Of a DNA stretch of 20,451 nt, positions 1 through 20,451 are shown piece by piece. Position 1 is the first letter of the stretch. Every line of letters starts with the position of its first letter. Under the pieces are notes generated by a model, which was not told where the DNA came from, did not search any database, and worked only from the letters and a program-made list of their open reading frames with translations. The position numbers were made by a program, and so were the translations under genes. Source of the DNA: a virus. The DNA lies in the IMG/VR virus record IMGVR_UViG_3300048691_000162, positions 1 to 20,451 of that record; one strand, 5' to 3'.

Positions 1-195
1 AGGAAGGAAGACATGCTGGCGATGGGCATCAGCTCTCCGGACATCATCGACGCGATGTCCTTCGCCTTCCTCGAAGACGCGCACTACATCGAAATGAGCG
101 CCGATGCGAGCAGCCTTGGCATGGCCCCTGCCGACATGCGGAAACTGCGGAGCGTTTGCAAGCGACAAGGTGTTGCCGGCTTGGATGCTGCGTGA
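1..195 (+). CDS. Probable large terminase, C-terminal fragment
   Basis: The reading frame is already open at base 1 and ends at TGA 193-195, giving 64 visible residues. The start lies outside the window. Residues 1-25 read RKEDM, then GISSPDIIDAM, then SFAFLED. This matches the end of the nuclease domain of phage large terminases, where a KEDM-like stretch is followed by SPD..DA and a hydrophobic run. Large terminase is the ATP-driven motor that cuts and packages phage DNA into the prohead. The last 30 residues are not diagnostic and overlap the next gene from base 104 in another frame. That could mean true overlap, or a terminase end replaced by foreign sequence. The identification rests on one short motif; a chance match in a fragment is possible. 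Confidence 0.5.
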   Translation, partial: RKEDMLAMGISSPDIIDAMSFAFLEDAHYIEMSADASSLGMAPADMRKLRSVCKRQGVAGLDAA

Positions 196-376
196 CCTGA
201 ATACAGAGGGCGTGCTGAAAGTTTACGGTGCCAGCGGCAGGTCGATAGAATTCAAGACGGCCGACGAAGTACCGGAATCCTACAAGGTGGAGGCCGCGAT
301 GCGCTGCACCGACCACGGCTTTGCAACCAAGAAGATGGCGGCGTGCAAACTATGGCGGTCAAAGCAAGACGCCTAA
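104..376 (+). CDS. Small putative zinc-binding protein, cassette-like gene
   Basis: This encodes at most 90 residues. It has a CGNC pair near residue 12 followed by GAF, and a second cysteine group (RC...GFAT...AACKLW) near the end. The spacing resembles small zinc-ribbon phage or cassette proteins. Function is unknown. The ATG at 104 is the first in the frame, but no convincing ribosome binding site precedes it and the first 90 bases overlap the terminase-like frame, so the true start is uncertain. The coding signal is clear from about base 137 on. The stop TAA (374-376) lies inside a GCCTAAC box that begins an attC-like palindrome, as is typical of integron gene cassettes. No core site is visible upstream of the gene. 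Confidence 0.55.
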   Translation: MRAALAWPLPTCGNCGAFASDKVLPAWMLRDLNTEGVLKVYGASGRSIEFKTADEVPESYKVEAAMRCTDHGFATKKMAACKLWRSKQDA

Positions 377-478
377 CGTGGGAGCTAAGTTGGAGACAAC
401 GGCGCCCGCACGAAACTGACCGGGGCATGACGGTGCAGAGTGGCGCTGTTGGCTCTCAACTTGAGCGACGTGTTAGGC
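371..478 (+). other. attC-like recombination site 1
   Basis: This 108-bp imperfect palindrome has the attC layout. It opens with an R'' box GCCTAAC (371-377) and closes with an R' box GTTAGGC (472-478), which fits GTTRRRY and is the exact reverse complement of the R'' box. Inner boxes pair: AAGTTGGAGA at 387-396 with TCTCAACTT at 454-462, leaving one unpaired G, like the extrahelical base used for strand recognition in attC sites. Pairing continues inward (CAACGGCGCC against GGCGCTGTTG). The upstream gene stops inside the R'' box and the next gene starts 26 bases after the R' box. Confidence 0.75.
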
Positions 479-503
479 CGCCGCAACCGAAGCTAGGAAA
501 AGC

Positions 504-797
504 ATGCGAGTGGTATTCAACAACGCTGGCGACTTTGCCGCCATGTACGCGGCCGAGGACTGGTGCGCAAAACACGGTCTGAGCGTGGGTTCGTCGGAGC
601 GTGGCAAGCCGCGCGGCATCTTGTTCGGGGACTACGCCATTGCCAAGTGGCACAACCTGCGGCAAGCCGACAAGGACGCGCTGCACGGCACGATGACCGG
701 CGACATGCGCAACGGCCCCGTCACGGTGGCGGTGGATGAGCATGCCGCGCGGCGCGCTGGCGGGCTTTTGCCTGCTGACACGCCACAAGCGGCCTAA
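504..797 (+). CDS. Hypothetical protein, cassette-like gene 2
   Basis: This encodes a 97-residue soluble protein with no signal peptide or membrane segment. An AGGA ribosome binding site lies five bases before the ATG. The sequence contains AAEDWCAKHG, then a GDYAIAKWHNL stretch, then GTMTGDMRNGPV. It resembles small hypothetical proteins of phages and mobile elements, and no function can be assigned. The gene is exactly framed by two attC-like sites. It starts 26 bases after the R' box of the first, and its TAA stop (795-797) is embedded in the GCCTAAC box of the second. This one-gene, one-site arrangement is what defines an integron cassette. Confidence 0.7.
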   Translation: MRVVFNNAGDFAAMYAAEDWCAKHGLSVGSSERGKPRGILFGDYAIAKWHNLRQADKDALHGTMTGDMRNGPVTVAVDEHAARRAGGLLPADTPQAA

Positions 798-892
798 CGT
801 CGAAGTTGAGGCGCAGACACCGGCCGCACCGACCTAGACCAAACGCGCGACTCCGCCTGCCGGTGGCTGTCGCCTCGAACGACCTGTTCGGC
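792..892 (+). other. attC-like recombination site 2
   Basis: This 101-bp imperfect palindrome begins with GCCTAAC (792-798) and ends with GTTCGGC (886-892). Inner boxes pair: GTTGAGGCG at 805-813 with CGCCTCGAAC at 871-880, again with one unpaired base. A further CACCGGC/GCCGGTG pairing lies inside. The R' box departs from GTTRRRY at its fourth base, so this site is more degenerate than the first. Its length and position between two small genes match site 1. Confidence 0.65.
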
Positions 893-923
893 TTCACTGG
901 CGGCCGAAGCAACTGGAGGAATG

Positions 924-1487
924 ATGGAAACGAAAACCTACACGACGATTGACCGCGCGGCACTCGGCTGGCCCGCAGGCCCGTGGGATGACGAGCCCGA
1001 CAAGGTGCAGTGGCCGGATGCCGCAACTGGCTTGCCGTGCTTGGCGGTGCGCCACAAGCGAAGCGGCCACTGGTGCGGCTATGTTGGCGTGAGCGACGCG
1101 CATCCGCTGCATGGGAAGGACTATGGTGAAGCCGAAGTTGATGTACATGGTGGCCTGACGTTCGCTGATGCTTGCAACCCAAGTGAAGCCGAATCGCAAG
1201 GCATTTGCCACACACCAGCACCCGGCGAGCCGGATCATGTGTGGTGGTTCGGGTTCGACTGCGCTCATGCGTGGGACTACTCGCCGTCTGACTTGAAGCG
1301 ATCGGAGCAGGGCTACCCATTCACCATCATGGATGACGAGCAGTACCGCACGCTGGCCTACGTGCAGAACGAGTGCGCGCGGCTCGCTGGGCAACTGGTG
1401 AAGCCGAACGTGATTTATCGGTCACCCGCTGCAGGGTTTGCATCTCAAACCCTGCATCACCTGCCATCGCGCAGCGAATCCAGGTAG
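924..1487 (+). CDS. Hypothetical phage-type protein, probably altered at the 3' end
   Basis: This encodes a 187-residue protein. ATG 924 is preferred over ATG 921 because GGAGG at 915-919 then has a workable 4-base spacing. The body contains YTTIDRAALGW, EPDKVQW, GLPCLAVRH, GYVGVSDAHP, VHGGLTFADAC, ICHTPAPGE and WWFGFDCAH, a pattern familiar from unnamed proteins of phages and plasmids. Its cysteines and histidines suggest metal binding, but no activity is known. A helical stretch (YRTLAYVQNECARLAGQL) looks like the natural end. The last 20 or so residues cross a perfect inverted repeat and overlap the end of the integrase gene tail to tail by 31 bases, so the original 3' end was probably lost. 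No attC-like site follows it. Confidence 0.6.
   Translation: METKTYTTIDRAALGWPAGPWDDEPDKVQWPDAATGLPCLAVRHKRSGHWCGYVGVSDAHPLHGKDYGEAEVDVHGGLTFADACNPSEAESQGICHTPAPGEPDHVWWFGFDCAHAWDYSPSDLKRSEQGYPFTIMDDEQYRTLAYVQNECARLAGQLVKPNVIYRSPAAGFASQTLHHLPSRSESR
1431..1455. terminator. Perfect 10-bp hairpin at the integrase 3' end
   Basis: Arms GCAGGGTTTG (1431-1440) and CAAACCCTGC (1446-1455) are exact reverse complements with a 5-base loop, one base past the integrase stop. Position suggests a transcription terminator between convergent genes, but neither strand has a following T-run. An alternative is a recombinase core site with inverted arms. Confidence 0.45.
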
Positions 1488-2671
1488 TCAGCCCACGCGG
1501 TCATCATCGCCCGCCGCTGCGCCAGAAACTCGGCCCGATCGTAGGCCGACCCGAGAGGCCCGGACTTGCTGTGCGCAAGCTGGGCCTCGATCACGTCTGG
1601 ACTGACACCGGGAAGTCTCTCCACGATCAACGTGCGCGCCATGGCCCGGAAGCCGTGCGGGGTCATCTCATCGTTCGAGTAGTCCAGCCGGCGAAGCGCC
1701 GCACGCACGGTGTTTTCGCTCATCGGCTTGAGGTGGGTCAGCAGCGACGGGAAGACGTGCTTGCCTGACCCGGTCACGGGCCGAATCTCCTCCAGCAAGG
1801 CCAGAGCTTGGGGCGCCAGCGGCACCAGGTGCGGACGGCCATTGATCTTGCCGTGCAGCGTGCGCTTCATCTTCATGGCCGGGATGGTCCACATCGCCGT
1901 AGTCACATCGACTTCCGCCCACTCCATCATCCGCACGTTGCCCGGCCGCTGAAACAGCAGCGCCGACAGGATCAGCGCAATGCGGGTGGTCGGCTGGCCA
2001 TGGTAGGTGTCGAAGGCGCGCAGCATCTCGCCGACCCTGGCCGGCTCCAGCAGCGCCGCCATGTTCTTGCGCAGCCGCTGCTTCAGGGCGCCGTTCAGGT
2101 CTTCGGCTGGGTTGCGGTCACACCGGCCGGTCTGGATGCCGTACTGGAACACCACGCCGGCCGTCTGGCGCAGCGAGTGCGCCGTCTCGCCGGATCGCTT
2201 CTCGACCTTGCGCAGGATGTCCAGCAGCACCGGGGCGGTGATGTTGCGCAGTGGCAGACTTCCGACCCGCGGGAACAGATCGTTCGCCATGCGCTCCAGC
2301 CACTTGCTGCCGTAGCGCGGGCTCCACCCGCTCGACTTCTGCTCATGGAACTCGCGGGCCACGGCCTCGAACGTGATGGCCGACGCCTGCTGCGCCAGGA
2401 TCTTCTCTGCCCGCCGCTGTTGCGCCGGGTGTGTGCCGCCCTGGTGGGTCTGCCGGGCCTTGTCCCGCTCCATCCGGGCGGACTTGAGCGAAACAGCGGG
2501 GTAGGCGCCAAGCGCCAAGCGAGACTCCTTCCCCCCGCCGTAGAACTTCCAGAACCACCGTTTCGCCCCGCTCGGAGAAACCTCCAGATACAGACCACCA
2601 GCATCGGTAATGCGCCGCCGTTTCGAGTCTGTCGGGCATGTGGCGGTTCGGCAATCAAGGTCGGTCAGCAT
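1457..2671 (-). CDS. int: Tyrosine-type phage integrase (DUF4102/P4-like)
   Basis: This is a complete 404-residue site-specific recombinase, the usual length for P4-type integrases. The N-terminus (about 15-90, with ITDAGGLYLEVSPSGAKRWF and LGAYPAVSLKSAR) is the DUF4102 arm-binding domain. A SAM-like core-binding domain spans about 100-190. The catalytic domain has R242 (FQRPGNVR), H339 and R342 (PHGFRAMART), H367 (LAHSK) and the nucleophile Y378 (SAYDR), so all the key residues seen are present. It would insert and help excise the phage genome. The ATG at 2671 has only a weak ribosome binding site. The gene is convergent with the small gene at 924-1487. A cluster of short repeats upstream may be its arm sites. 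Confidence 0.95.
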   Translation of the reverse strand: MLTDLDCRTATCPTDSKRRRITDAGGLYLEVSPSGAKRWFWKFYGGGKESRLALGAYPAVSLKSARMERDKARQTHQGGTHPAQQRRAEKILAQQASAITFEAVAREFHEQKSSGWSPRYGSKWLERMANDLFPRVGSLPLRNITAPVLLDILRKVEKRSGETAHSLRQTAGVVFQYGIQTGRCDRNPAEDLNGALKQRLRKNMAALLEPARVGEMLRAFDTYHGQPTTRIALILSALLFQRPGNVRMMEWAEVDVTTAMWTIPAMKMKRTLHGKINGRPHLVPLAPQALALLEEIRPVTGSGKHVFPSLLTHLKPMSENTVRAALRRLDYSNDEMTPHGFRAMARTLIVERLPGVSPDVIEAQLAHSKSGPLGSAYDRAEFLAQRRAMMTAWADYLDSLRDGR

Positions 2672-2709: not shown

Positions 2710-2965
2710 GTTCCCCGGATTGTTCCCCGGAATGGTCCGCGCTGCTACGGCAGCCACTGACATGGGGTGGCCCGAACTTGTCGGCGTGTTTTTGAGGTGA
2801 GTCTGATGATCTTGACCGTGCGGCCTGAGTCGGCCTGCCGGTTTGGCCTGCCCGGAGGAGTCCACACTGACCAGCGTTTTGCGCTATGCCGGATTGGCCT
2901 CAAGCTGAACCGAAGTGCCAGCGTGTTCCCCGATTTGTTCCCCGGTTTTCATGATGCTGGGGAAC
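2710..2965. repeat. Cluster of GTTCCCC repeats, candidate integrase arm sites
   Basis: Four copies of GTTCCCC lie at 2710-2716, 2722-2728, 2925-2931 and 2937-2943. One inverted copy (GGGGAAC) lies at 2959-2965. They form two tandem pairs, each pair spaced 12 bases apart. The cluster fills the gap upstream of the integrase and overlaps the 3' end of the 100-aa gene. Spaced short repeats beside an integrase are typical of arm-type binding sites in attP. No core sequence could be fixed. Apart from these repeats, the 212-base gap 2672-2883 shows nothing recognisable. Confidence 0.5.
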
Positions 2966-6578: not shown

Positions 6579-8435
6579 TCAGCCGCTGATGGTCTCGCGC
6601 AGGAACACCTGACGCAGCACACCCTCATACGACGCCGAGATGCCGATGTTCATCACCGTCTTCGGATTCGACGCATTCGGCTGGATTTCAGCATCGAAGC
6701 TCTTGCCGTTCAGGCTCCCCGCGGGGACCAGCCAGCCTGCGGCTTCAGCGTCAGCCAGCAGCCGGTTCGCCGAGTAGCCCATGCGTTTCATGGCCTCCTG
6801 CATCGGCAGGTGGATGAGCTGCTTCGCGGCGCCAGCCAACGTGTTTTCGATCTGACTGGCCATCTCGCCGACCGACACCAGCCGGCGATCGGACGTGCCC
6901 GAGGCCACGAGCGTGATCGAGTCGGCGAACTGGTAGCTGCCACCGCCCGAAGACTCGTAGACCACCGGGTTGACACCAGCACGCGCCAGGTCAGACAGCT
7001 CGCTGTCCTTGACGACGGCGATCTGCCGGGGCTTGATCCGCTGCAAGGGGTAGCGGTGGCCGGCGATCGGGTAGTTCTTGGGCGCGAAACCGTTGCTGTT
7101 GACGTTCGCGTTGCGGTTGGCGCGCGCACCGGCTTGCAGGCCCGACGTACCGATCACCTCGAAGTAGCTGTTGTACTGGTCGAATGCCTCCAGCGGTGCC
7201 CAGTAGGCGGAGTAGAGGTGCGCGGCATCATCTGCCATACCGAGGCCGGCCACGTAGTCGATGGCGCCCTGTGCCGACAGCCGGCCGTCCACGTCGATGA
7301 CCAGCGGCAGGTTCAGCATCTTCGCTGCGCCGCCCAGCAGGCCGACCAGGGTGGGGCTGTAGAGACCACCGGTGATCAGCATGCCGAACGGAGTTTCGCT
7401 GTATGTCAGGCGATCGACCGCCGTGGCGTAGACCGACTGCGGGTAGCTGCCGATGGTTCCTTCCGAGAACAGCGACAGCGTGGACGAACGCGCCCAGTTG
7501 TCGGTGCCGGACGTGCCCCGGCCATAGGCGTTTTCGCACCACGACGGCACGGAGCCGCCAGAGGCGCACACCAGACGGTAGGTCGGGTCAACCCGCTGCA
7601 GCACGTCGGGCAGGTACTCGGACAAGCCGTTTGCATCCTTCGCTTGCGACGACAGCGAGCCGCTGACTTGCTGCACCACCGAGCCGTCCATGGGATCGAT
7701 CACGCGCAGCGTCAGGTACGAACTCGCCACAGCGGGGCCACTGAGCGGCGTTTTGTCGGCGTGGATTTCGAGGACGACGCCGCTGTTCCAGCAGTTGTGG
7801 TCCTCCAGGTACATGAGGAATGAACCATCGGCAGGGACAGCCGGGCTCACCGAGTACCACATGTCGGAGCTGGCGATGACTGCCGGGGCAGTGGTGTAGC
7901 CGGTGCCACCGATCAGGCCAGTGACGCCAGTGATACCGCCGCTGGCATTGACCGCAATGCGCGCCTTCGCGCCGCTGCCGCCGCCGCCGACGATCTGCAG
8001 CCAAGCGCCCGACTTGTAGTTCGTGCCCGTGCTGGTGACGGTGATGGCCGTGACGGCTCCGCCAGCGATGGTGGCCGTCAGCGTGGCCGTACCGCTGGGG
8101 ATGCCGACGACGGCGTAGGACTTGGCTGCCGTCGAGTTGACCAGGCGGGCCACGACAGCCGAACGGGCACCCGTGTCCAGGGCCTCGCGCAGCACGACGG
8201 ACGGGGCGTTTTCGGCCGAGTTGCGGATGGACTGCACGGGGCCGAGCTTGCTGCCGATGTTGCTGCGATCCACGACGATGTTGCGATCGATCGCACCGCG
8301 GGCGAATCGGCCGACCAGGGCAATGACCTGATCGTTCGATGACGAGCTGGCGCGCTCAGTCCGATCGATCGGCATGGCGAGCTGCACGCCGGTCTGGGAT
8401 CCGATCGAGCGGACGAAAGGCTGAAAAGTTGCCAT
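6579..8435 (-). CDS. Contractile tail sheath protein
   Basis: This complete 618-residue protein starts at ATG 8435, four bases after the previous stop, with an AAGGGG site. The C-terminal part shows the sheath signature: RQIAVVKDSELSDLARAGVNPV, then RRLVSVGEMASQIENTL, then a terminal NIGISASYEGVLRQVFLRE strand. Sheath subunits stack around the tail tube and contract to drive it through the cell envelope. The gene sits in the tail block after the capsid genes. Unusually, residues about 122-185 carry two Gly-rich beta repeats (AITVTSTGTNY, GGGGSGAKA, GVTGLIGGTGYTTAP) of a kind better known from tail fibres and adhesins. They are inserted in the outer N-terminal half. Confidence 0.85.
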   Translation of the reverse strand: MATFQPFVRSIGSQTGVQLAMPIDRTERASSSSNDQVIALVGRFARGAIDRNIVVDRSNIGSKLGPVQSIRNSAENAPSVVLREALDTGARSAVVARLVNSTAAKSYAVVGIPSGTATLTATIAGGAVTAITVTSTGTNYKSGAWLQIVGGGGSGAKARIAVNASGGITGVTGLIGGTGYTTAPAVIASSDMWYSVSPAVPADGSFLMYLEDHNCWNSGVVLEIHADKTPLSGPAVASSYLTLRVIDPMDGSVVQQVSGSLSSQAKDANGLSEYLPDVLQRVDPTYRLVCASGGSVPSWCENAYGRGTSGTDNWARSSTLSLFSEGTIGSYPQSVYATAVDRLTYSETPFGMLITGGLYSPTLVGLLGGAAKMLNLPLVIDVDGRLSAQGAIDYVAGLGMADDAAHLYSAYWAPLEAFDQYNSYFEVIGTSGLQAGARANRNANVNSNGFAPKNYPIAGHRYPLQRIKPRQIAVVKDSELSDLARAGVNPVVYESSGGGSYQFADSITLVASGTSDRRLVSVGEMASQIENTLAGAAKQLIHLPMQEAMKRMGYSANRLLADAEAAGWLVPAGSLNGKSFDAEIQPNASNPKTVMNIGISASYEGVLRQVFLRETISG

Positions 8436-10658: not shown

Positions 10659-11141
10659 TCAAGCGGTGGCGGTCTCGGCTTCCGCCAGCTTCGCAGTGAC
10701 CACCTCTACTTCCGCCAGCAGACCATCACGGCGTGCAGCCAGCTTGGCCAGCAGCGTGGTGCGTGCCGTGCGCACTGCGGGCGGGAGCGGTTCGATCGGC
10801 TGCGCGGCGAGCTTGCGCTGGAACTTGTCGCGCCCAGCCACGAGTTTCGCGGCGATCTCCTTGGCTGCGCCTGCGGCATCGGCCTGGCGGAACACGGGGA
10901 TGAGCGCGCCGTTGATCCGCGTCTCGAACACGTCGCCGGTCGCTTTCACCAGCAGCTCGACACGCTGGCCGTCCGACATCACCAGGCACACGGTCTTGAA
11001 GTCGATCCCCGCGCGCTTCACCGATTTGGTGTCGAACGTGGCGCTTGCCACCGGGCTGCCGGACTGACCGAGCAGCTTGCTGACCTGCTTGATGGCTGGA
11101 TCGCGGGGCGACGGGGAGTTGAAGTTGAAAGCGATGTTCAT
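10659..11141 (-). CDS. DarA_N-like protein, possible head-packaged anti-restriction factor
   Basis: This encodes 160 residues. ATG 11141 is chosen because a strong AGGAG lies six bases upstream; the open frame continues far upstream but only as antisense-like sequence through other genes. Residues about 40-110 (KRAGIDFKTVCLVMSDGQRV, then LLVKATGDVFETRINGALIP, then AKEIAAKLV) resemble the DarA_N barrel, the N-terminal domain of P1 DarA and related polyvalent phage proteins. P1 DarA is packed into heads and helps protect injected DNA from type I restriction. Residues 122-158 form a coiled coil. Its place directly before the capsid gene fits a head protein. The match is by eye and moderate. Confidence 0.5.
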   Translation of the reverse strand: MNIAFNFNSPSPRDPAIKQVSKLLGQSGSPVASATFDTKSVKRAGIDFKTVCLVMSDGQRVELLVKATGDVFETRINGALIPVFRQADAAGAAKEIAAKLVAGRDKFQRKLAAQPIEPLPPAVRTARTTLLAKLAARRDGLLAEVEVVTAKLAEAETATA

Positions 11142-11224
11142 GGGCGGCTCCTGGCCTTTCTGGTGCCGCCGATCTTCAGCGTCCCGCCCGACTGGGGCCG
11201 TGAGGTTTTCCGCTTCTGGTGGTA

Positions 11225-11515
11225 TCAGCCGCCAGCGAACACGTTCGGTGACCCCATTGCCGACACGCTGCCGCAGCTCACGCTGTCGCCGATCCGCATC
11301 AGCGGTTTGCCATTGACGAACACGCTGCTGCTGCCGCCCGCGGCGCTGCCGCTGTGGCACTTCTTCGGGCTGCAGTGCGGGACGTAGCCATCCCCTGTGC
11401 GAAGCGCACCGATGCCGTTGATGAACACGTCGCTGCTGCCGCCGTAGGAGGGGCGGCCAGGGAACGTGCCGTGGCCGGAACAGGAATCTCCGGATCGAGA
11501 TGCTGCTGGCATCAT
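11225..11515 (-). CDS. PAAR-domain tail spike tip protein
   Basis: This encodes 96 residues, about the length of a single PAAR domain. The start overlaps the upstream stop as ATGA; a second ATG follows at once (ATGATG), with AAGGA just upstream. Visible PAAR signatures are SGHGTFPGRPS, GSSDVFINGIGALRTGD, PHCSPKKCHSG, GSSSVFVNGKPLMRIGD, then SCGS and GSPNVFAGG. Histidines and cysteines of these repeats can bind a metal at the tip. PAAR proteins cap the trimeric spike and sharpen it for membrane piercing. The spike gene lies one gene upstream, in the same operon. Confidence 0.85.
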   Translation of the reverse strand: MMPAASRSGDSCSGHGTFPGRPSYGGSSDVFINGIGALRTGDGYVPHCSPKKCHSGSAAGGSSSVFVNGKPLMRIGDSVSCGSVSAMGSPNVFAGG

Positions 11516-12078
11516 GATTTCCTTCGCAGGTTGACCGCGGCGGCGAGGGCGTCGCGGTTGGGGGTGTAGTCCTTGCGCAAGCCGAACACGTAGGTCCGGC
11601 GCTCGGTGCCACGCTTGACGCCGCCGTTCGCCGCCCAGTCGGTGGCCTCGATGGTGATCGAGTAGTACGGCCGGTGCGAGGGGTCAGGGCGGTAGGTGAT
11701 GACCTCCTGGTGCTCGGCCGTGATGGCGCCGAATTCCCGCACATCCACCACCGGGCCGCCCGGCTCCACCTCAACGCCAAGCTCCAGGATGCGCGGGTTC
11801 TGCCCGCCGAGAATCCGCGCATCGCTGGTGGTCAGCGTCAACCGGACCACCTTCGACTTGGTCGGCGGGGTCAGCTCCAGCTTGACGCCAGCAGGCAGGG
11901 CCGGGACCACGCTGATGATCGACACCAGCACCTCCCCAGGAAGTGGCTCGCCCGCCTCCCCTGCGATGGTGATGACCTCAGCCAGCGCGCCGCGTGCCGG
12001 CTGCTGAAACCACACATCAGCGTCCTTCGCCTCATCCCGGCCACCCGTGGTTTCGTCGATCCGCCAGAGCGCCGCCAT
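11512..12078 (-). CDS. Hypothetical beta-rich tail protein
   Basis: This encodes 188 residues starting at ATG 12078, with GAGG five bases upstream. It is soluble and rich in predicted beta strands, with short motifs such as LVSIISVVPALPAGV, VVRLTLTTSDARI and YYSITIEATDWAA, and a basic end (NLRRKS). It has no cysteine. I do not recognise the family. It lies between the spike and PAAR genes and is coupled to PAAR by an ATGA overlap, so it probably belongs to the baseplate or spike complex. An adaptor or chaperone for the tip is possible, but this is inference from position. Confidence 0.6.
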   Translation of the reverse strand: MAALWRIDETTGGRDEAKDADVWFQQPARGALAEVITIAGEAGEPLPGEVLVSIISVVPALPAGVKLELTPPTKSKVVRLTLTTSDARILGGQNPRILELGVEVEPGGPVVDVREFGAITAEHQEVITYRPDPSHRPYYSITIEATDWAANGGVKRGTERRTYVFGLRKDYTPNRDALAAAVNLRRKS

Positions 12079-14548: not shown

Positions 14549-15403
14549 TCAGTCGGCGTCGTTCTCCGCCTTTGATTCGAAGGCGTCCAGCTCATCGAGG
14601 CCGAACATGGTGTTGGCGTGTGCCATCAGGACCAGATCCTGCGCCAGACTCGGCGGGACGCCGCGGCACACGGCCGCCCCCAGCAGCGTCAGCACATCCG
14701 CGAAGTGCGCCACTGCGCGGTCGATTGCGATGCCTTCGGGTGTGCGGATACGCCGCTGACCAGCTTCGGTCTGTCGCCGGCCGGCCACCTGGTCCGGCAC
14801 TTTTCTGTTTGTAGTGTCATTGAGCAGGGCCGTCGCGTAGAGCTTCGCGGACTCATTGTCGATCTGCATGACCTTCGACAGCAGGTGCTCCAGAGCTGGC
14901 CTGTCCAGGCCGAGGTCACGCACCAGGGTGAGCGTCTGCACCATCAGCACGCTGGCATTCATCGCGTCGGCAGTGGTCCGCTGACGCTCGCTATCCAGCG
15001 CGCTTAAATCTGTGGCTTTCAGCTCGGGCGCTACGGCGGCCGCAGCAGTCTCCGCGGCGAGTACAGGCGGGGTGATGGGCAGCATCAGCGCCGCACTCTT
15101 GGTCTGCATGTAGGCGACCAGCACCGACACCGACTTCATGTCGAGGTCGAGCGCGAGTTCCGGTGCTTCGTTCATCAGGGCTGACAGCATTTCAGCCGCA
15201 TCTCCCAGCGTCGTGGCGATGGCGTGGCGTGACGTGACGGCAGTATTCTGTTCGGTCGTGGTCATGGTCGTGCTCCCAGTAGGATTGATGTATTGTGGAA
15301 TTTGTCCGGCAGTATTGCCGGGTGCAGGCAGTGGCGCATTCTCTGCGGATTTGCCGGATTCGGCGGGAGGTACCACCTGTTTTGGGGTGTCGGGGCGGCT
15401 CAT
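14549..15403 (-). CDS. Hypothetical helical protein, coupled to the antirepressor
   Basis: This encodes 284 residues from ATG 15403, which overlaps the antirepressor stop as ATGA, with GAGG seven bases upstream. An internal ATG at 15265 has its own GGGAG site and would give a 238-residue form without the Pro-rich N-terminus. The protein is almost all helical, with an Ala-rich linker near residue 130 (LAAETAAAAVAPELKAT) and a helical block LDRPALEHLLSKVMQIDN. It ends in an acidic tail. No family was recognised. A tail assembly or scaffolding role is possible because structural genes follow, but a regulatory partner of the antirepressor cannot be excluded. Confidence 0.55.
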   Translation of the reverse strand: MSRPDTPKQVVPPAESGKSAENAPLPAPGNTAGQIPQYINPTGSTTMTTTEQNTAVTSRHAIATTLGDAAEMLSALMNEAPELALDLDMKSVSVLVAYMQTKSAALMLPITPPVLAAETAAAAVAPELKATDLSALDSERQRTTADAMNASVLMVQTLTLVRDLGLDRPALEHLLSKVMQIDNESAKLYATALLNDTTNRKVPDQVAGRRQTEAGQRRIRTPEGIAIDRAVAHFADVLTLLGAAVCRGVPPSLAQDLVLMAHANTMFGLDELDAFESKAENDAD

Positions 15404-16203
15404 GCCACCACCTCAGTGCCGAGTGCTTCCGCGAGCTTGGCCAGTCCCTTGGCGGTGAGGCGCATGTTGTCCACCGCCTTCTCGCTGCCGTCGCTGCGCT
15501 CGACGGTGGTGGTCGAGTGCTCGACAAGGCCGGCCTGGATGCGCTCCTGGTAGCCGAGCCAGACGCTGGAGCCGGCGCGCTTGTAGATCCACTTGTTGGC
15601 ACTGAGCCATGCGAACAGATCCTTCGGGCGCATCTTCAACTGCTTGGCGGCGTTGGTCACGCACATGCTGCCATCGGCGGAACCCAGGCGTTTCTGCGCG
15701 GCGACGGCCGGGGCCTGGGATTGCACTGTCGCTTCCATGGCGATGAGCTGCTCGGTATAGCCCAGCAGCGCGGCACGCAGGGAGTGCGGGTTCATGAAGT
15801 CGATGGCCTGGGCTGCCGGCTGCATGGCATAGCTGCCGGTCTTGCGCAAAGAGGGCAGCACGTCGCCAACAACCCACTCCTCAAACTCATGAGCGGACTC
15901 CAGCTTGGAACGCATCACCAGCCGGTACAGGTCACGCTCAGGGATGATGGAGGTCTGCGGATCGAGGGGGGTGAACGAATCGTTCACCCCCACCTGCCGC
16001 ATCGACTTGCAGTGGTCACGGCACGCCTTCTGCGGATTCGTGTACCCGAGTGCAGTGGCAACGTCTTTGGCGACAAACCAAGGCTCGATGTCGATGACGA
16101 TGGTTCGCACATCGAATGCAGTGCCGCTGGGGAGATGGAAGGTGAACAGGCGCACGTCGGCGCGGTGTGCCGGCTGTGCGGCGTGGGTGATGTTGTTGGC
16201 CAT
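15400..16203 (-). CDS. ant: Phage antirepressor (BRO-N plus C-terminal ANT domain)
   Basis: This encodes 267 residues. ATG 16203 is chosen over an ATG 12 codons upstream because GGAG lies seven bases before it. Residues about 17-125 are a BRO-N domain: DIEPWFVAKDVATALGYTNP, then IIPERDLYRLVMRSKL, then EFEEWVVGDVLPSLRKTGSY. Residues about 150-262 match the phage antirepressor C-terminal (ANT/KilAC) domain, with KQLKMRPKDLFAWLSANKWIY and NMRLTAKGLAKLAE. Antirepressors of P1/P22 type bind phage repressors and trigger lytic growth. The upstream leader is strongly structured and resembles a C4 antisense RNA, the known regulator of this gene class. The next gene is coupled by ATGA. Confidence 0.85.
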   Translation of the reverse strand: MANNITHAAQPAHRADVRLFTFHLPSGTAFDVRTIVIDIEPWFVAKDVATALGYTNPQKACRDHCKSMRQVGVNDSFTPLDPQTSIIPERDLYRLVMRSKLESAHEFEEWVVGDVLPSLRKTGSYAMQPAAQAIDFMNPHSLRAALLGYTEQLIAMEATVQSQAPAVAAQKRLGSADGSMCVTNAAKQLKMRPKDLFAWLSANKWIYKRAGSSVWLGYQERIQAGLVEHSTTTVERSDGSEKAVDNMRLTAKGLAKLAEALGTEVVA

Positions 16204-16219
16204 GATGGCGCTCCGGGTC

Positions 16220-16234
16220 GGTACTTGATGTACC
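16220..16234 (-). promoter_or_regulatory. Small hairpin just upstream of the antirepressor start
   Basis: Arms GGTAC (16220-16224) and GTACC (16230-16234) form a 5-bp stem with a 5-base loop in the mRNA leader, six bases before the GGAG site. It could influence ribosome access to the antirepressor start. Confidence 0.35.
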
Positions 16235-16266
16235 GCCACCCATCATCTGTCGGAGATGGGTGGCGG
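16233..16266 (-). promoter_or_regulatory. Perfect 12-bp inverted repeat in the antirepressor leader
   Basis: Arms CCGCCACCCATC (16233-16244) and GATGGGTGGCGG (16255-16266) are exact reverse complements with a 10-base loop, about 30 bases before the antirepressor start. The far arm touches the C4-like stem, so the two hairpins compete for two bases. It is a good candidate for the regulated target or switch region of the leader; a protein operator is the alternative. Confidence 0.6.
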
Positions 16267-16328
16267 GCCGTGTGGGTGACAGACCGGGACCACGGAACCG
16301 GCAGGGCTTACGCCCTCCCACACGGCCC
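16265..16328 (-). ncRNA. C4-like antisense RNA (phage antirepressor regulator)
   Basis: In the minus-strand RNA, a perfect 12-bp closing stem pairs GGGCCGUGUGGG (16328-16317) with CCCACACGGCCC (16276-16265). Inside it lie a GGGC-GUAA-GCCC tetraloop hairpin and a second arm closed by two CCGG boxes around UUCCGUGGUC. This is a three-way-junction layout. The interior GCCGGUUCCGUGGUCCCGGU is, from memory, close to the conserved core of the C4 RNA family of P1/P7 and of prophage IsrK, which block synthesis of a downstream antirepressor. UCUGUC (16283-16278) can pair with GACAGA (16251-16246) in the leader loop. The antirepressor gene starts 62 bases downstream. The family assignment was not tested with a covariance model. 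Confidence 0.65.
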
Positions 16329-16374
16329 ACCATTGAAATCGGGGCCATGCTGCGCAGCACGTCGCAATGACGTG

Positions 16375-16396
16375 AAAAAGCCGCGACTGGCGCGGC
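16375..16396 (-). terminator. Intrinsic terminator on the minus strand
   Basis: A 6-bp GC stem, GCCGCG/CGCGGC with a 5-base loop (16380-16396), is followed on the minus strand by five T residues (16379-16375). It lies upstream of the C4-like RNA and could stop read-through from the right, or act as an attenuator of a leader started near 16450. Confidence 0.7.
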
Positions 16397-16430
16397 GGCT
16401 GCGCCGTGATTTCCGGGCTGTCATCCCCGA

Positions 16431-16449
16431 CCGCTGTTTTTTGCAGCGG
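16431..16449. other. Hairpin with T-run loop in the leader region
   Basis: Arms CCGCTG (16431-16436) and CAGCGG (16444-16449) are perfect complements. The 7-base loop is TTTTTTG on the plus strand. It lies at the predicted beginning of a minus-strand transcript. Together with the palindrome TGCTGCGCAGCA (16348-16359) it shows that the whole 16204-16645 gene-free stretch is rich in secondary structure. Confidence 0.4.
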
Positions 16450-16456
16450 CAGAAGG

Positions 16457-16486
16457 AATGTAGCCCGGAAGTGCAAGAGCCGTCAA
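16457..16486 (-). promoter_or_regulatory. Predicted sigma70-type promoter for the C4/antirepressor leader
   Basis: On the minus strand, TTGACG (16486-16481) matches the -35 box at 5 of 6 bases, and TACATT (16462-16457) matches the -10 box at 4 of 6, with an 18-base spacer. Transcription would start near 16450 and run through the terminator at 16375 and the C4-like RNA into the antirepressor gene. A perfect TTGACA lies further upstream, but no -10 follows it. Confidence 0.45.
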
Positions 16487-17963: not shown

Positions 17964-20451
17964 TCACCGCGTCTGCGAACCCAGCCCCCCCGTGACGATG
18001 TGGGCGAGCTGCCTGTCCGGCAGATCCTGGCTGACGGGCGTGCGCTGCTGCACGAACGACCGGTCATCCGAATCGCTGTTCAGCGGGGGAGGGGGCGCTT
18101 CGACCTTGGGCTGCTCTGGGATGGGCGGCATGACCCAGACGGGCGAGATGACCGGTGCCTTGATCGTGCCCGCGGAGACTGCCGACATGCGCGGTAGAGC
18201 GGTCGGTGAGACCTGCATTGCCGCGGGGCCTGCCGAAGTTGTCGTCGCAGCATTGGCCGATGTGGCGGCTTCGGTGGATGCATCGGCTGGCGGCTGGCGG
18301 CTGGTTGGCGGCTGGTTGGCGGCTGTCTTCTGGCTGGTGGCGACGGGTCGCAGGCTGCTTGAGGCCGGCACCATGAGTTCGGACATTGGGGTGGCCGCCG
18401 TTGCTTTGACAGCCGGCCCACGCTTTACCTCCTCAATCGCAGCCCGGTACCCGCCGACATCATTCACGATGTCGGCGGCGTACTTCTTCGACCCCACTCC
18501 GTTGTGATCCTTGGTCCCATCGGCCCCCCTCGCAACCCTCCTTGCCCCACCAACCCCGCCAATGTGAGCCGCCTTCAGTAGTGCCGCGACATTCTCGGGG
18601 GACGTTGACTTGCCGATAGGGCTAATCCCCGTCGCTGGGTCTGCCACGGTGAGGCGCTGGTACAGCTTGTTGTTGACGGTTGCAAACGCCTTGTCTTGAA
18701 TGTCCTTGCTGCCCAGGTACTTCTCCTGATTCATGCCATCGACCCAGTTGTTCGGGTCTTTCATGTAAGCCTTCGACCCGCCAGAAGTCATCCAGGCGCC
18801 GACATCTTTGGCTCCATCCCGCTTCATTGCGGCGTTCACGGCATTGGCGCCGCCGCGCATCAGGCCGGCATCGGCCAGCCACCCAGGTGTTGCTTGATAG
18901 GCACCGATGGCACCGCCTGTCAGTCGCTCGGTGATGCTGTAGTTGCCACCATTGGATTCGGTGGCAAGGGTCGATGCAATCAGTTGCTGCTGCGTTGTTT
19001 CGTCAAGCCCTTCGATCTTTCCGCCGCGGAAATCAAGAGCATTCTCAACAGCCCGCGCCTTGTTTTTTTCCTTGATGCCGAGCTTGTCTTTCGCCCAGGC
19101 TCTTGCAGGCTCTGGTGCCACATATCGAATCACCTTCTTCACTGACTCCGGCACAGCGTCTGCCGCCGCCGCCGCACCATTTGTCGCCAAGTCGTGGGCT
19201 GCAGCCTTTGACTTCTGTGCCACATCGGCCGCGATGTCCTTCACCGGCTGGGGGATGGCTGCGACAGCAGCGTCCTTCGCCGCCACGGCCTTGTCGGCCA
19301 CATCGCCAGCGAACTCCTTCACCGGCTTGGCGATGTCGGCCAGCGCCTTCCGTCCGGTTTCGGCCATGCTGGCCAGCTTGGCCGCGGCGTCCTTGGCTGT
19401 GGTGCTGGCGAACTCGCCTACCGATGCGGCCTTGTCCTGCACGCCGGCTTTCTCCAGCCCCTTGCCGACAGCCTTCCCGAGCTGCTCGCCAACAACTTCC
19501 CCGCCCATGGCCCCTGCGATGCTGCCGGCGATTGCCCCGACCAGCGCACCAGGCGGCCCAAGCACGGCGCCAAGTGCTGCACCAGTGGCGGCACCAGCAG
19601 CCCCGCCAGCCAGACCACCCGCAACGCCGCCGACAGCCCCAGCCTTCTTGTCGCGGTTCTGTTCTGGCGTGGCGGCAGGGTCGTCTGGCGCAGCCGCTGC
19701 AGAGTAGAGGCCCGCGGCGCCGATCGCGGCGCCCAGCCATGGCACGCGCTTCAGAATGGACCCGAGCTTGCTGCCGCCCTTGGCTGCGGCACCAGGTGCA
19801 GGCCCACCGGAAGGAAGACCAGCAGGCGTAGCACCAGGACTACCCGAACGTCCGGATCCACCGGCACCCCCACGACCAGGAATTCCACCCGGACCCGGAG
19901 ATGGCGGTAGCTGCCCGATCTTGCCCCGGCCCTTCCCGCCAAGACCCCCTAGGCCACCCAGCGCACCAAGCCCAGGGATCAGTGAGGCCAGCGTGGAGAG
20001 GATGCCGCCCTTCTTCTCGGCCCCTCCACCCGAGATTGGCTTGCGCTCGATCTCTTTCAGCACGCGGATGATTTCGCGGTCGTTCTTCTCTGCTGTGCGC
20101 GACGTGGCGCGTACATCACGGCGAGTCGGCCCGGCTTCATCTGCGCCTGAGCGGACTGAACGGCGCCCAGTGAACAGCGCCTTCAGAGGCGAAACACCCG
20201 AGCTTGCCGGAGGTGAACCGGCGGTGACACCCATTCCGGACAAGGTTAGGCTGCGGCGATGCCCCGTGTTGGATGTGGTGGTCTGTGCGGACTGCTGGGT
20301 GGCGCGGCCCGGCGCGGTCGGCGTGGTCGGCGCGGCGGTGCTGCTGGCGGCCGTGGTCGGCGTGGCCGGCGCGGTCGGCGTGGCGGTGCTTCTGGCGGCC
20401 GTGGTCGGCGCGGTCGGCGCGGTCGGCGCGGTCGGCGTGGCGGTGCTGCTG
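17964..20451 (-). CDS. Large tail or ejection protein with lysozyme-like domain, partial
   Basis: The frame runs off the right edge, so the N-terminus is missing; 828 residues are visible. Counting from an internal TTG at 20243, residues 1-180 are Gly/Pro-rich and disordered. About 200-262 is a glycine zipper (GAVGGVAGGLAGG to GEQLGKAVG) likely to enter membranes. About 265-390 is Ala/Lys helical. About 415-600 is a lytic-transglycosylase-like domain with candidate catalytic E429 in ATESNGG, GAYQ at 447-450 and AAHIGGVGGARR near 560. The tail is Pro/Thr-rich. Such proteins open peptidoglycan during infection, as tail-tip or ejected proteins. Before residue 1, Ala/Thr/Pro repeats continue to the edge. 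A tape-measure protein with a lytic domain is possible. Confidence 0.75.
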   Translation of the reverse strand, partial: SSTATPTAPTAPTAPTTAARSTATPTAPATPTTAASSTAAPTTPTAPGRATQQSAQTTTSNTGHRRSLTLSGMGVTAGSPPASSGVSPLKALFTGRRSVRSGADEAGPTRRDVRATSRTAEKNDREIIRVLKEIERKPISGGGAEKKGGILSTLASLIPGLGALGGLGGLGGKGRGKIGQLPPSPGPGGIPGRGGAGGSGRSGSPGATPAGLPSGGPAPGAAAKGGSKLGSILKRVPWLGAAIGAAGLYSAAAAPDDPAATPEQNRDKKAGAVGGVAGGLAGGAAGAATGAALGAVLGPPGALVGAIAGSIAGAMGGEVVGEQLGKAVGKGLEKAGVQDKAASVGEFASTTAKDAAAKLASMAETGRKALADIAKPVKEFAGDVADKAVAAKDAAVAAIPQPVKDIAADVAQKSKAAAHDLATNGAAAAADAVPESVKKVIRYVAPEPARAWAKDKLGIKEKNKARAVENALDFRGGKIEGLDETTQQQLIASTLATESNGGNYSITERLTGGAIGAYQATPGWLADAGLMRGGANAVNAAMKRDGAKDVGAWMTSGGSKAYMKDPNNWVDGMNQEKYLGSKDIQDKAFATVNNKLYQRLTVADPATGISPIGKSTSPENVAALLKAAHIGGVGGARRVARGADGTKDHNGVGSKKYAADIVNDVGGYRAAIEEVKRGPAVKATAATPMSELMVPASSSLRPVATSQKTAANQPPTSRQPPADASTEAATSANAATTTSAGPAAMQVSPTALPRMSAVSAGTIKAPVISPVWVMPPIPEQPKVEAPPPPLNSDSDDRSFVQQRTPVSQDLPDRQLAHIVTGGLGSQTR
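20304..20451 (-). repeat. GC-rich tandem repeats coding for Ala/Thr/Pro
   Basis: Three copies of a block made of GTGGTCGGCG, a variable number of 9-bp CGGTCGGCG-type units, then GCGGTGCTGCTGGCGGCC occur on the plus strand. In the coding frame they give TAP/TPT steps between SSTA and TTAA motifs. The number of 9-bp units differs among blocks, which suggests slippage. The array is cut by the window edge. Confidence 0.65.

Follow-up and report, generated by a model that had tools for sequence, protein, structure and literature searches.

Clusters of attC sites without the integron integrase IntI are known from the genomes of the phages TJE1, P12002L and PH101 (Qi et al. 2023, PMC9892861). In the same study phage attC sites recombined with attI1 and were active with IntI1, and a P1 isolate was found to carry class 1 integron fragments (Qi et al. 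2023, PMC9892861). Like these phage CALINs (PMC9892861), the locus presented here is a cluster of attC sites without IntI inside a phage genome. The window, i.e. the whole stretch of 20,451 nucleotides that was analysed, corresponds to an entire IMG/VR record. An original prediction, made from its letters, had proposed a cassette array in or next to a phage genome as an unusual route of cassette spread. This interpretation is partly supported: phage-borne cassettes are real here, but they are not new, attC clusters in phages having been reported in 2023 (PMC9892861).

attC sites and cassette units of the window

The two imperfect palindromes of 101-108 bp announced by the original prediction are present (Table 1), with the boxes it described when read on the plus strand (GCCTAAC...GTTAGGC for site 1, GCCTAAC...GTTCGGC for site 2) and with inner boxes which pair and leave single bases unpaired in both palindromes. 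Their supposed attC identity was confirmed with a covariance model of our own, calibrated on 26 aligned sites taken from cassette arrays adjoining integron-integrase genes of Burkholderiales and built without any window sequence. Searching the window with this model gave 52.2 bits for site 1 (E 3.5e-11) and 52.8 bits for site 2 (E 2.4e-11), both on the minus strand; these are the two strong attC of the window, the best remaining match being at 12.6 bits (E 0.21). Site 1 obtained merely 7.2 bits on the plus strand. Rfam gave no attC match anywhere in the window. Over 101 bp, site 2 shares 82% identity with an attC from the integron of Roseateles toxinivorans (L121, positions 597-698).

In both sites the left arm, as read on the minus strand, has two additional bases, a C and then an A, separated by six paired ones (GCT-C-AAGTTG-A-GAG against GCT AAGTTG GAG in site 1, GTT-C-GAGGCG-A-CAG against GTT GAGGCG CAG in site 2). 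The same arrangement of C and A on the minus strand is observed in the bacterial sites of the covariance model. On the plus strand these extra bases become a single unpaired G and a single unpaired T, which are the canonical extrahelical bases of attC. When folded as DNA, the plus strand has isolated bulged bases and z-scores against shuffled sequences of -4.5 (site 1) and -3.1 (site 2); the minus strand folds less well (-2.8 and -1.6). The single bulges of the predicted fold are clear in site 1 and less clean in site 2. The extrahelical bases are in the expected places; it is the plus strand that folds better, not the bottom strand which the original prediction had put forward for folding. 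In each case the R''/R' and L''/L' boxes form an imperfect palindrome, the L'' side has extrahelical bases and the model match is significant. Both palindromes can thus be identified as true attC sites, for which recombination by an integron integrase is predicted, and both are placed by the same features in canonical orientation on the minus strand. Since the unpaired bases lie on the minus-strand left arm and the plus strand gives the better fold, the plus strand is the one predicted to recombine; consequently, cleavage would fall in the left-hand boxes, which are R' (G|TTAGGC), the right-hand boxes being R''.

Table 1. Position of the array and of the neighbouring features in the window.
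Feature	Position	Strand	Remark
PacB C-terminus, P1-like large terminase	1..195	+	Relatives all viral
Truncated unit C	128..376	+	ORF with CxxC motif (LPTCGNCGAF...), TAA 374-376
attC site 1	371..478	-	108 bp; R'' 478-472 GCCTAAC, R' 377-371 G|TTAGGC
Extrahelical bases of attC site 1	T456 and G463	+	Located on the plus strand
Unit B (gene sense)	377..797	+	attC leader, then ribosome site and 97-aa gene; the last 3 bases of the unit are the final TAA
ORF2	504..797	+	97 aa; cassette gene without assigned function
attC site 2	792..892	-	101 bp; R'' 892-886 GCCGAAC, R' 798-792 G|TTAGGC
Extrahelical bases of attC site 2	T870 and G877	+	Located on the plus strand
Unit A (gene sense)	798..1408	+	attC leader 798-892 and phrog_2164-type gene
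ORF3	921..1487	+	188 aa as read; homology stops at ~1398-1409, the unit end
Hairpin between array and int	1430..1456	.	Perfect, 11-bp
P4-type phage tyrosine integrase, not IntI	1457..2671	-	Domain matches
Integrase arm-type repeats, int side of core	2710..2742	+	GTTCCCCGG repeats, 0 expected by chance
attP core, 16 bases	2842..2857	-	Identical to the 3' end of tRNA-Arg(TCT) in L005
Integrase arm-type repeat, other side of core	2925..2945	+	Repeat search

Two units and a truncated one were delimited. Unit B is bounded by the crossover points of the two R' boxes, and its end TTAGGC matches its own R'' GCCTAAC. Since R' reads GCC-TAA|C in reverse complement, the stop codon is exactly the end of unit B. 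The two ends of unit A (886-897 and 1398-1409) are perfectly complementary: its own R'' GCCGAAC pairs with its own end GTTCGGC (1409-1403), while the neighbouring R' is GTTAGGC. Judged from the boxes, this pattern at unit A shows past recombination. Unit A ends with GCCGAA|C, so its reading frame runs on to 1487, and the tail of ORF3 past ~1398-1409 falls outside the unit. The reading frame of unit C is cut at its 5' side by the pacB junction. The covariance model detected no attC on the far side of unit C within the window, nor did it find one at 1403-1409, the third boundary. No attI or attC partner is recognisable where the array ends on the right (1409-1430).

As originally described, the upstream frames stop with a TAA inside GCCTAAC (at 376 and 797) and genes start shortly after each site (at 504 and 921, 26 and 29 bases past); they are preceded by ribosome sites, AGGA at 496 for ORF2 and GGAGG before 921 for ORF3. 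ORF2 has 8 viral relatives, with 52-66% identity in the longer matches. ORF3 matches phrog_2164 (E 1.5e-32) and has 150 viral relatives. Substitutions against relatives, counted by codon position in the plus frame, are 14, 20, 28 and 16, 14, 27 for ORF2, and 26, 27, 58 and 35, 30, 103 for ORF3. The third position is the highest each time, which indicates that both genes code on the plus strand. The cassette genes, with their plus-strand coding, are therefore antisense to their attC, which lie on the minus strand. In a canonical gene cassette the attC comes after the gene and has the same polarity. What had been taken for the layout of integron gene cassettes is thus inverted relative to bacterial integrons: the polarity initially assumed was backwards, as the unpaired bases and the model place both attC on the minus strand.

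Some of the phage loci retrieved through ORF2 and ORF3 have attC as well; in one of them (L050) the relative of ORF3 lies between attC of opposite polarity. The best relative of ORF2 is found in a phage replication region (L104), with two attC at 90-146 and 7032-7132, also of opposite polarity, one of which has a degenerate R' box. A homologue of ORF2 on a Methylibium plasmid (L003) sits amid a string of plasmid genes and has no attC match.

Gene and attC polarity in viral and bacterial arrays

The viral set was obtained by scanning IMG/VR with an attC pattern blind to genes (48 stretches), and then with the covariance model. This pattern samples one attC style. The strand of cassette genes was called by a codon-usage score, which left 45 of the 96 viral cassettes undecided. 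The gene is antisense to attC in 50 of the 51 decidable viral cassettes, corresponding to 28 of 29 loci, several of which are near-identical or have common units, so that the contigs are not fully independent. The sole co-directional exception (L212) carries IntI. In bacterial arrays having the same attC pattern, antisense genes were found in 0 of 17 cases (Fisher, viral vs same-pattern bacterial, 4e-15); in bacterial arrays linked to intI, 3 of 27 were antisense and 24 co-directional. A cruder rule based on the longest ORF gives a weaker contrast, with 34 antisense vs 18 co-directional in viruses and 43 co-directional vs 2 antisense in bacteria. A TAA in the R' box closes an antisense ORF of at least 60 codons at 66 of 148 viral sites, and a stop is present in the R' box at 15 of 139 bacterial sites. 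The inverted polarity is general within the sampled viral set.

IntI was present in 4 of the 50 viral records with such attC. Three IMG/VR records which have both IntI and attC (L185, L203 and L204) are candidates for phages owning an integron integrase; the decidable cassette of L185 is inverted. The spot-checked viral arrays are flanked by terminase, DNA polymerase, helicase, Erf and RecT genes, which identifies those contigs as phage, the other viral contigs being classed by IMG/VR alone. The isolated phage TJE1 has the ordinary gene-attC polarity, so that the inversion is no rule for all phages. PH101 (first 50 kb) and P12002L gave no match with the Burkholderiales-trained attC model.

Predicted mobility of the units and the surrounding phage genome

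If cassettes have moved as circles, the R'' box of a unit should keep the sequence of its own end. In viral arrays the better partner of R'' is the R' of its own unit in 32 cases and that of the following unit in 9 (p 4e-4), and its match to the R' of the next unit is at random level. In bacterial arrays the corresponding counts are 66 and 6. We read this own-end matching, in viral and bacterial arrays alike, as a trace left by excised units whose two ends had joined into a circle. Between the sister phages L241 and L243 there is a difference of one cassette, which is about 347 bp long and lies between two attC, and the first bases of the unit after this cassette also differ. Some units common to other contigs end at crossovers. 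Besides, a segment of 547 bp located beside a minus-strand attC is inverted between the two sister phages (L241 11326-11872, L243 9538-8992). From box matching and from these relatives we infer that the two units of the window are mobile.

These observations bear on two other readings. The attC could be fossil or regulatory hairpins (leaders or terminators) of phage operons, their use in recombination having ended. That the contig is without IntI, that it holds two intact sites only, and that these have a fixed position before genes with TAA built into the box would all be in agreement with such a role. Yet both sites retain the two canonical extrahelical bases, and the unit-end matching and the one-cassette difference of the sister phages argue for movement, at least in relatives; we find this explanation unlikely. 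It is rather improbable, in turn, that units are exchanged at attC repeats by homologous recombination or by phage annealing proteins (Erf, RecT) in place of IntI. Several viral arrays do lie near Erf or RecT genes, but the attC within one array are often unlike each other, and G|TT, where IntI crosses over, is the position of several breakpoints and of the matches between unit ends.

The phage genome itself decides on a third reading, according to which 1-1409 would be a chromosomal array of the host and the phage would start at int. On the left, the L227 homologue of the window PacB matches PacB of D6, RCS47 and phiW39 and the large terminase of Xanthomonas phage Rb1. Bases 1-127 are identical to bases 1-127 of another contig (L224), exactly 127 bases at two contig ends, followed by differing pacB continuations. 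The shared 127-mer is probably a k-mer or assembly-graph branch, and there may be two coexisting versions of the sequence that follows pacB. A residual chance of an assembly error at the 127/128 junction is left; the int and attP junction is independent of it. On the right, the integrase has the domains Arm-DNA-bind_3 (7e-22), Phage_int_M (5e-30) and Phage_integrase (4e-12), with relatives in Burkholderiales of up to 69% identity. Most of its close relatives have a tRNA 5' of int, and int of the relatives adjoins tRNA 3' ends. In the window the attP core is likewise 5' of int; it is flanked by arm repeats to its left and right, a tRNA is absent, and on these features the attP is identified as intact. 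An intact attP on the 5' side of int places the array on the phage-interior side of int. Further right are PmgG-like, sheath, tube, Hdf-like and antirepressor genes and a C4 RNA; no close viral relatives were found for the tail sheath.

The host-array reading starts from the facts that integrons are common in Burkholderiales, that site 2 resembles a Roseateles attC and that IMG/VR contigs may include host flanks. It is largely refuted by the evidence from attP and tRNA position, i.e. an attachment site on the other side of int and an intact attP flanked by its arms left and right (2710-2945), and it also has to face the phage gene pacB on the far side of the array; we consider it very unlikely. 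As for ordinary cassettes, each gene being followed by its own attC in the same direction, the stops inside GCCTAAC and the starts just past the sites recall them, but this extremely improbable reading is refuted by the polarity (7.2 bits on the plus strand vs 52 on the minus strand for site 1, and extrahelical bases on the other arm).

The gene content thus upholds the location of the cluster within a phage genome, with pacB on its left and int, attP and P1-like genes on its right. P1-type packaging and structural genes are both present (PacB relatives, PmgG-like, sheath, tube and Hdf-like genes). A CALIN is defined by at least two attC within a few kb and without intI; here the two attC are 421 bp apart. 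The elements of a complete integron, intI and attI, were not recognised: the sole integrase of the window is of P4 type, no attI was recognised, and the contig is a fragment. We assign the array, on gene content and predicted sites, to a CALIN in a P1-like temperate phage with phage genes on both sides. The host is probably a member of the Burkholderiales.

Other features of the right part were noted. A C4 antisense RNA (16256-16463, 69.8 bits), with a1/b1 target-like and isrK-like sequences, adjoins a KilAC/BRO antirepressor (15400-16239), forming an immI-like immunity locus of P1/P22 type. A DarA_N / Hdf-like antirestriction protein, which P1 has likewise, is encoded at 10659-11822. Short GGCGCGGTCGGCGTGG-type repeats are present at 20312-20451 in a glycine-zipper ORF (17964-20450), and the contig probably ends there due to these repeats.

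Proposed mechanism and comparison with known systems

In gene sense, a unit is composed of a reverse-complement attC leader, a ribosome site and a small accessory gene of the phage; a stop, if there is one, is a TAA that closes the unit exactly at the crossover point. In the account that we propose, units would move in circular form, G|TT being cleaved on the folded attC (plus) strand by an integron integrase. As viral records of this kind are mostly without IntI, the integrase would be supplied in trans by the host. We infer that host IntI is the mover of the phage cassettes; an integron integrase is present in 95 of 250 Burkholderiales genomes. Cassettes would be expressed within the phage operon in which they sit. 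The recombining attC strand would be the sense strand of this operon and may be exposed during phage replication. This whole account, a phage CALIN of inverted units moved by host IntI and expressed from a phage operon, appears likely to us.

If a bacterial cassette were inserted at this locus, it would be antisense to the phage operon; likewise, a phage cassette that entered a bacterial integron would have antisense orientation relative to the promoter Pc. Insertion being the wrong way in either direction, polarity would keep phage and bacterial cassettes in separate pools and would itself be maintained by selection on expression. Proteins of the phage cassettes were matched in bacterial integron loci in 1 of 41 cases and in other viral loci in 14 of 41, a comparison which is only indicative since the viral set is larger and was partly fetched with two of these proteins. 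The inverted polarity in 28 viral contigs, including the window, suggests that phages have a mobile gene pool of their own; that polarity and expression keep the pools apart is a hypothesis consistent with the data. To the broader proposal, that phages of Burkholderiales have a separate and actively exchanged pool of inverted cassettes moved by host IntI, the recombinase being common to both sides and the genes not, we give an even chance. If true, phages would run their own cassette economy with a host recombinase, swapping small accessory genes as modules. Inverted polarity would predict the recombining strand, the expression of cassettes and the reason for the scant overlap of the bacterial and phage pools. 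Tools which presume that gene and attC are co-directional may misread such arrays.

Phage-borne attC and their activity with IntI1 are already known; we did not find the systematic gene-attC inversion reported. A search for orientation words in the main text of PMC9892861 returned no description of a general inversion, and the literature searched held no relevant report on inverted phage cassettes, which is no proof of novelty. The phages concerned differ from those described there (PMC9892861): TJE1 is co-directional, whereas gene and attC are opposed in the window and, among the sampled viral arrays that could be decided, in nearly all. The sedentary chromosomal integrons of Burkholderiales, e.g. 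that of Roseateles toxinivorans, have the same attC sequence and structure, with a length of ~102 bp and the canonical extrahelical bases. They differ in being linked to IntI, in having genes co-directional with attC (24:3) and in having few cassette proteins common to the phage pool. With P1-like phages (P1, D6, RCS47, Xanthomonas phage Rb1) the window phage shares PacB, PmgG-like and Hdf/DarA-like proteins and the sheath, and likewise the C4 antisense RNA and the antirepressor. Unlike them, it has a P4-type integrase, an attP corresponding to tRNA-Arg, and a cassette array after pacB.
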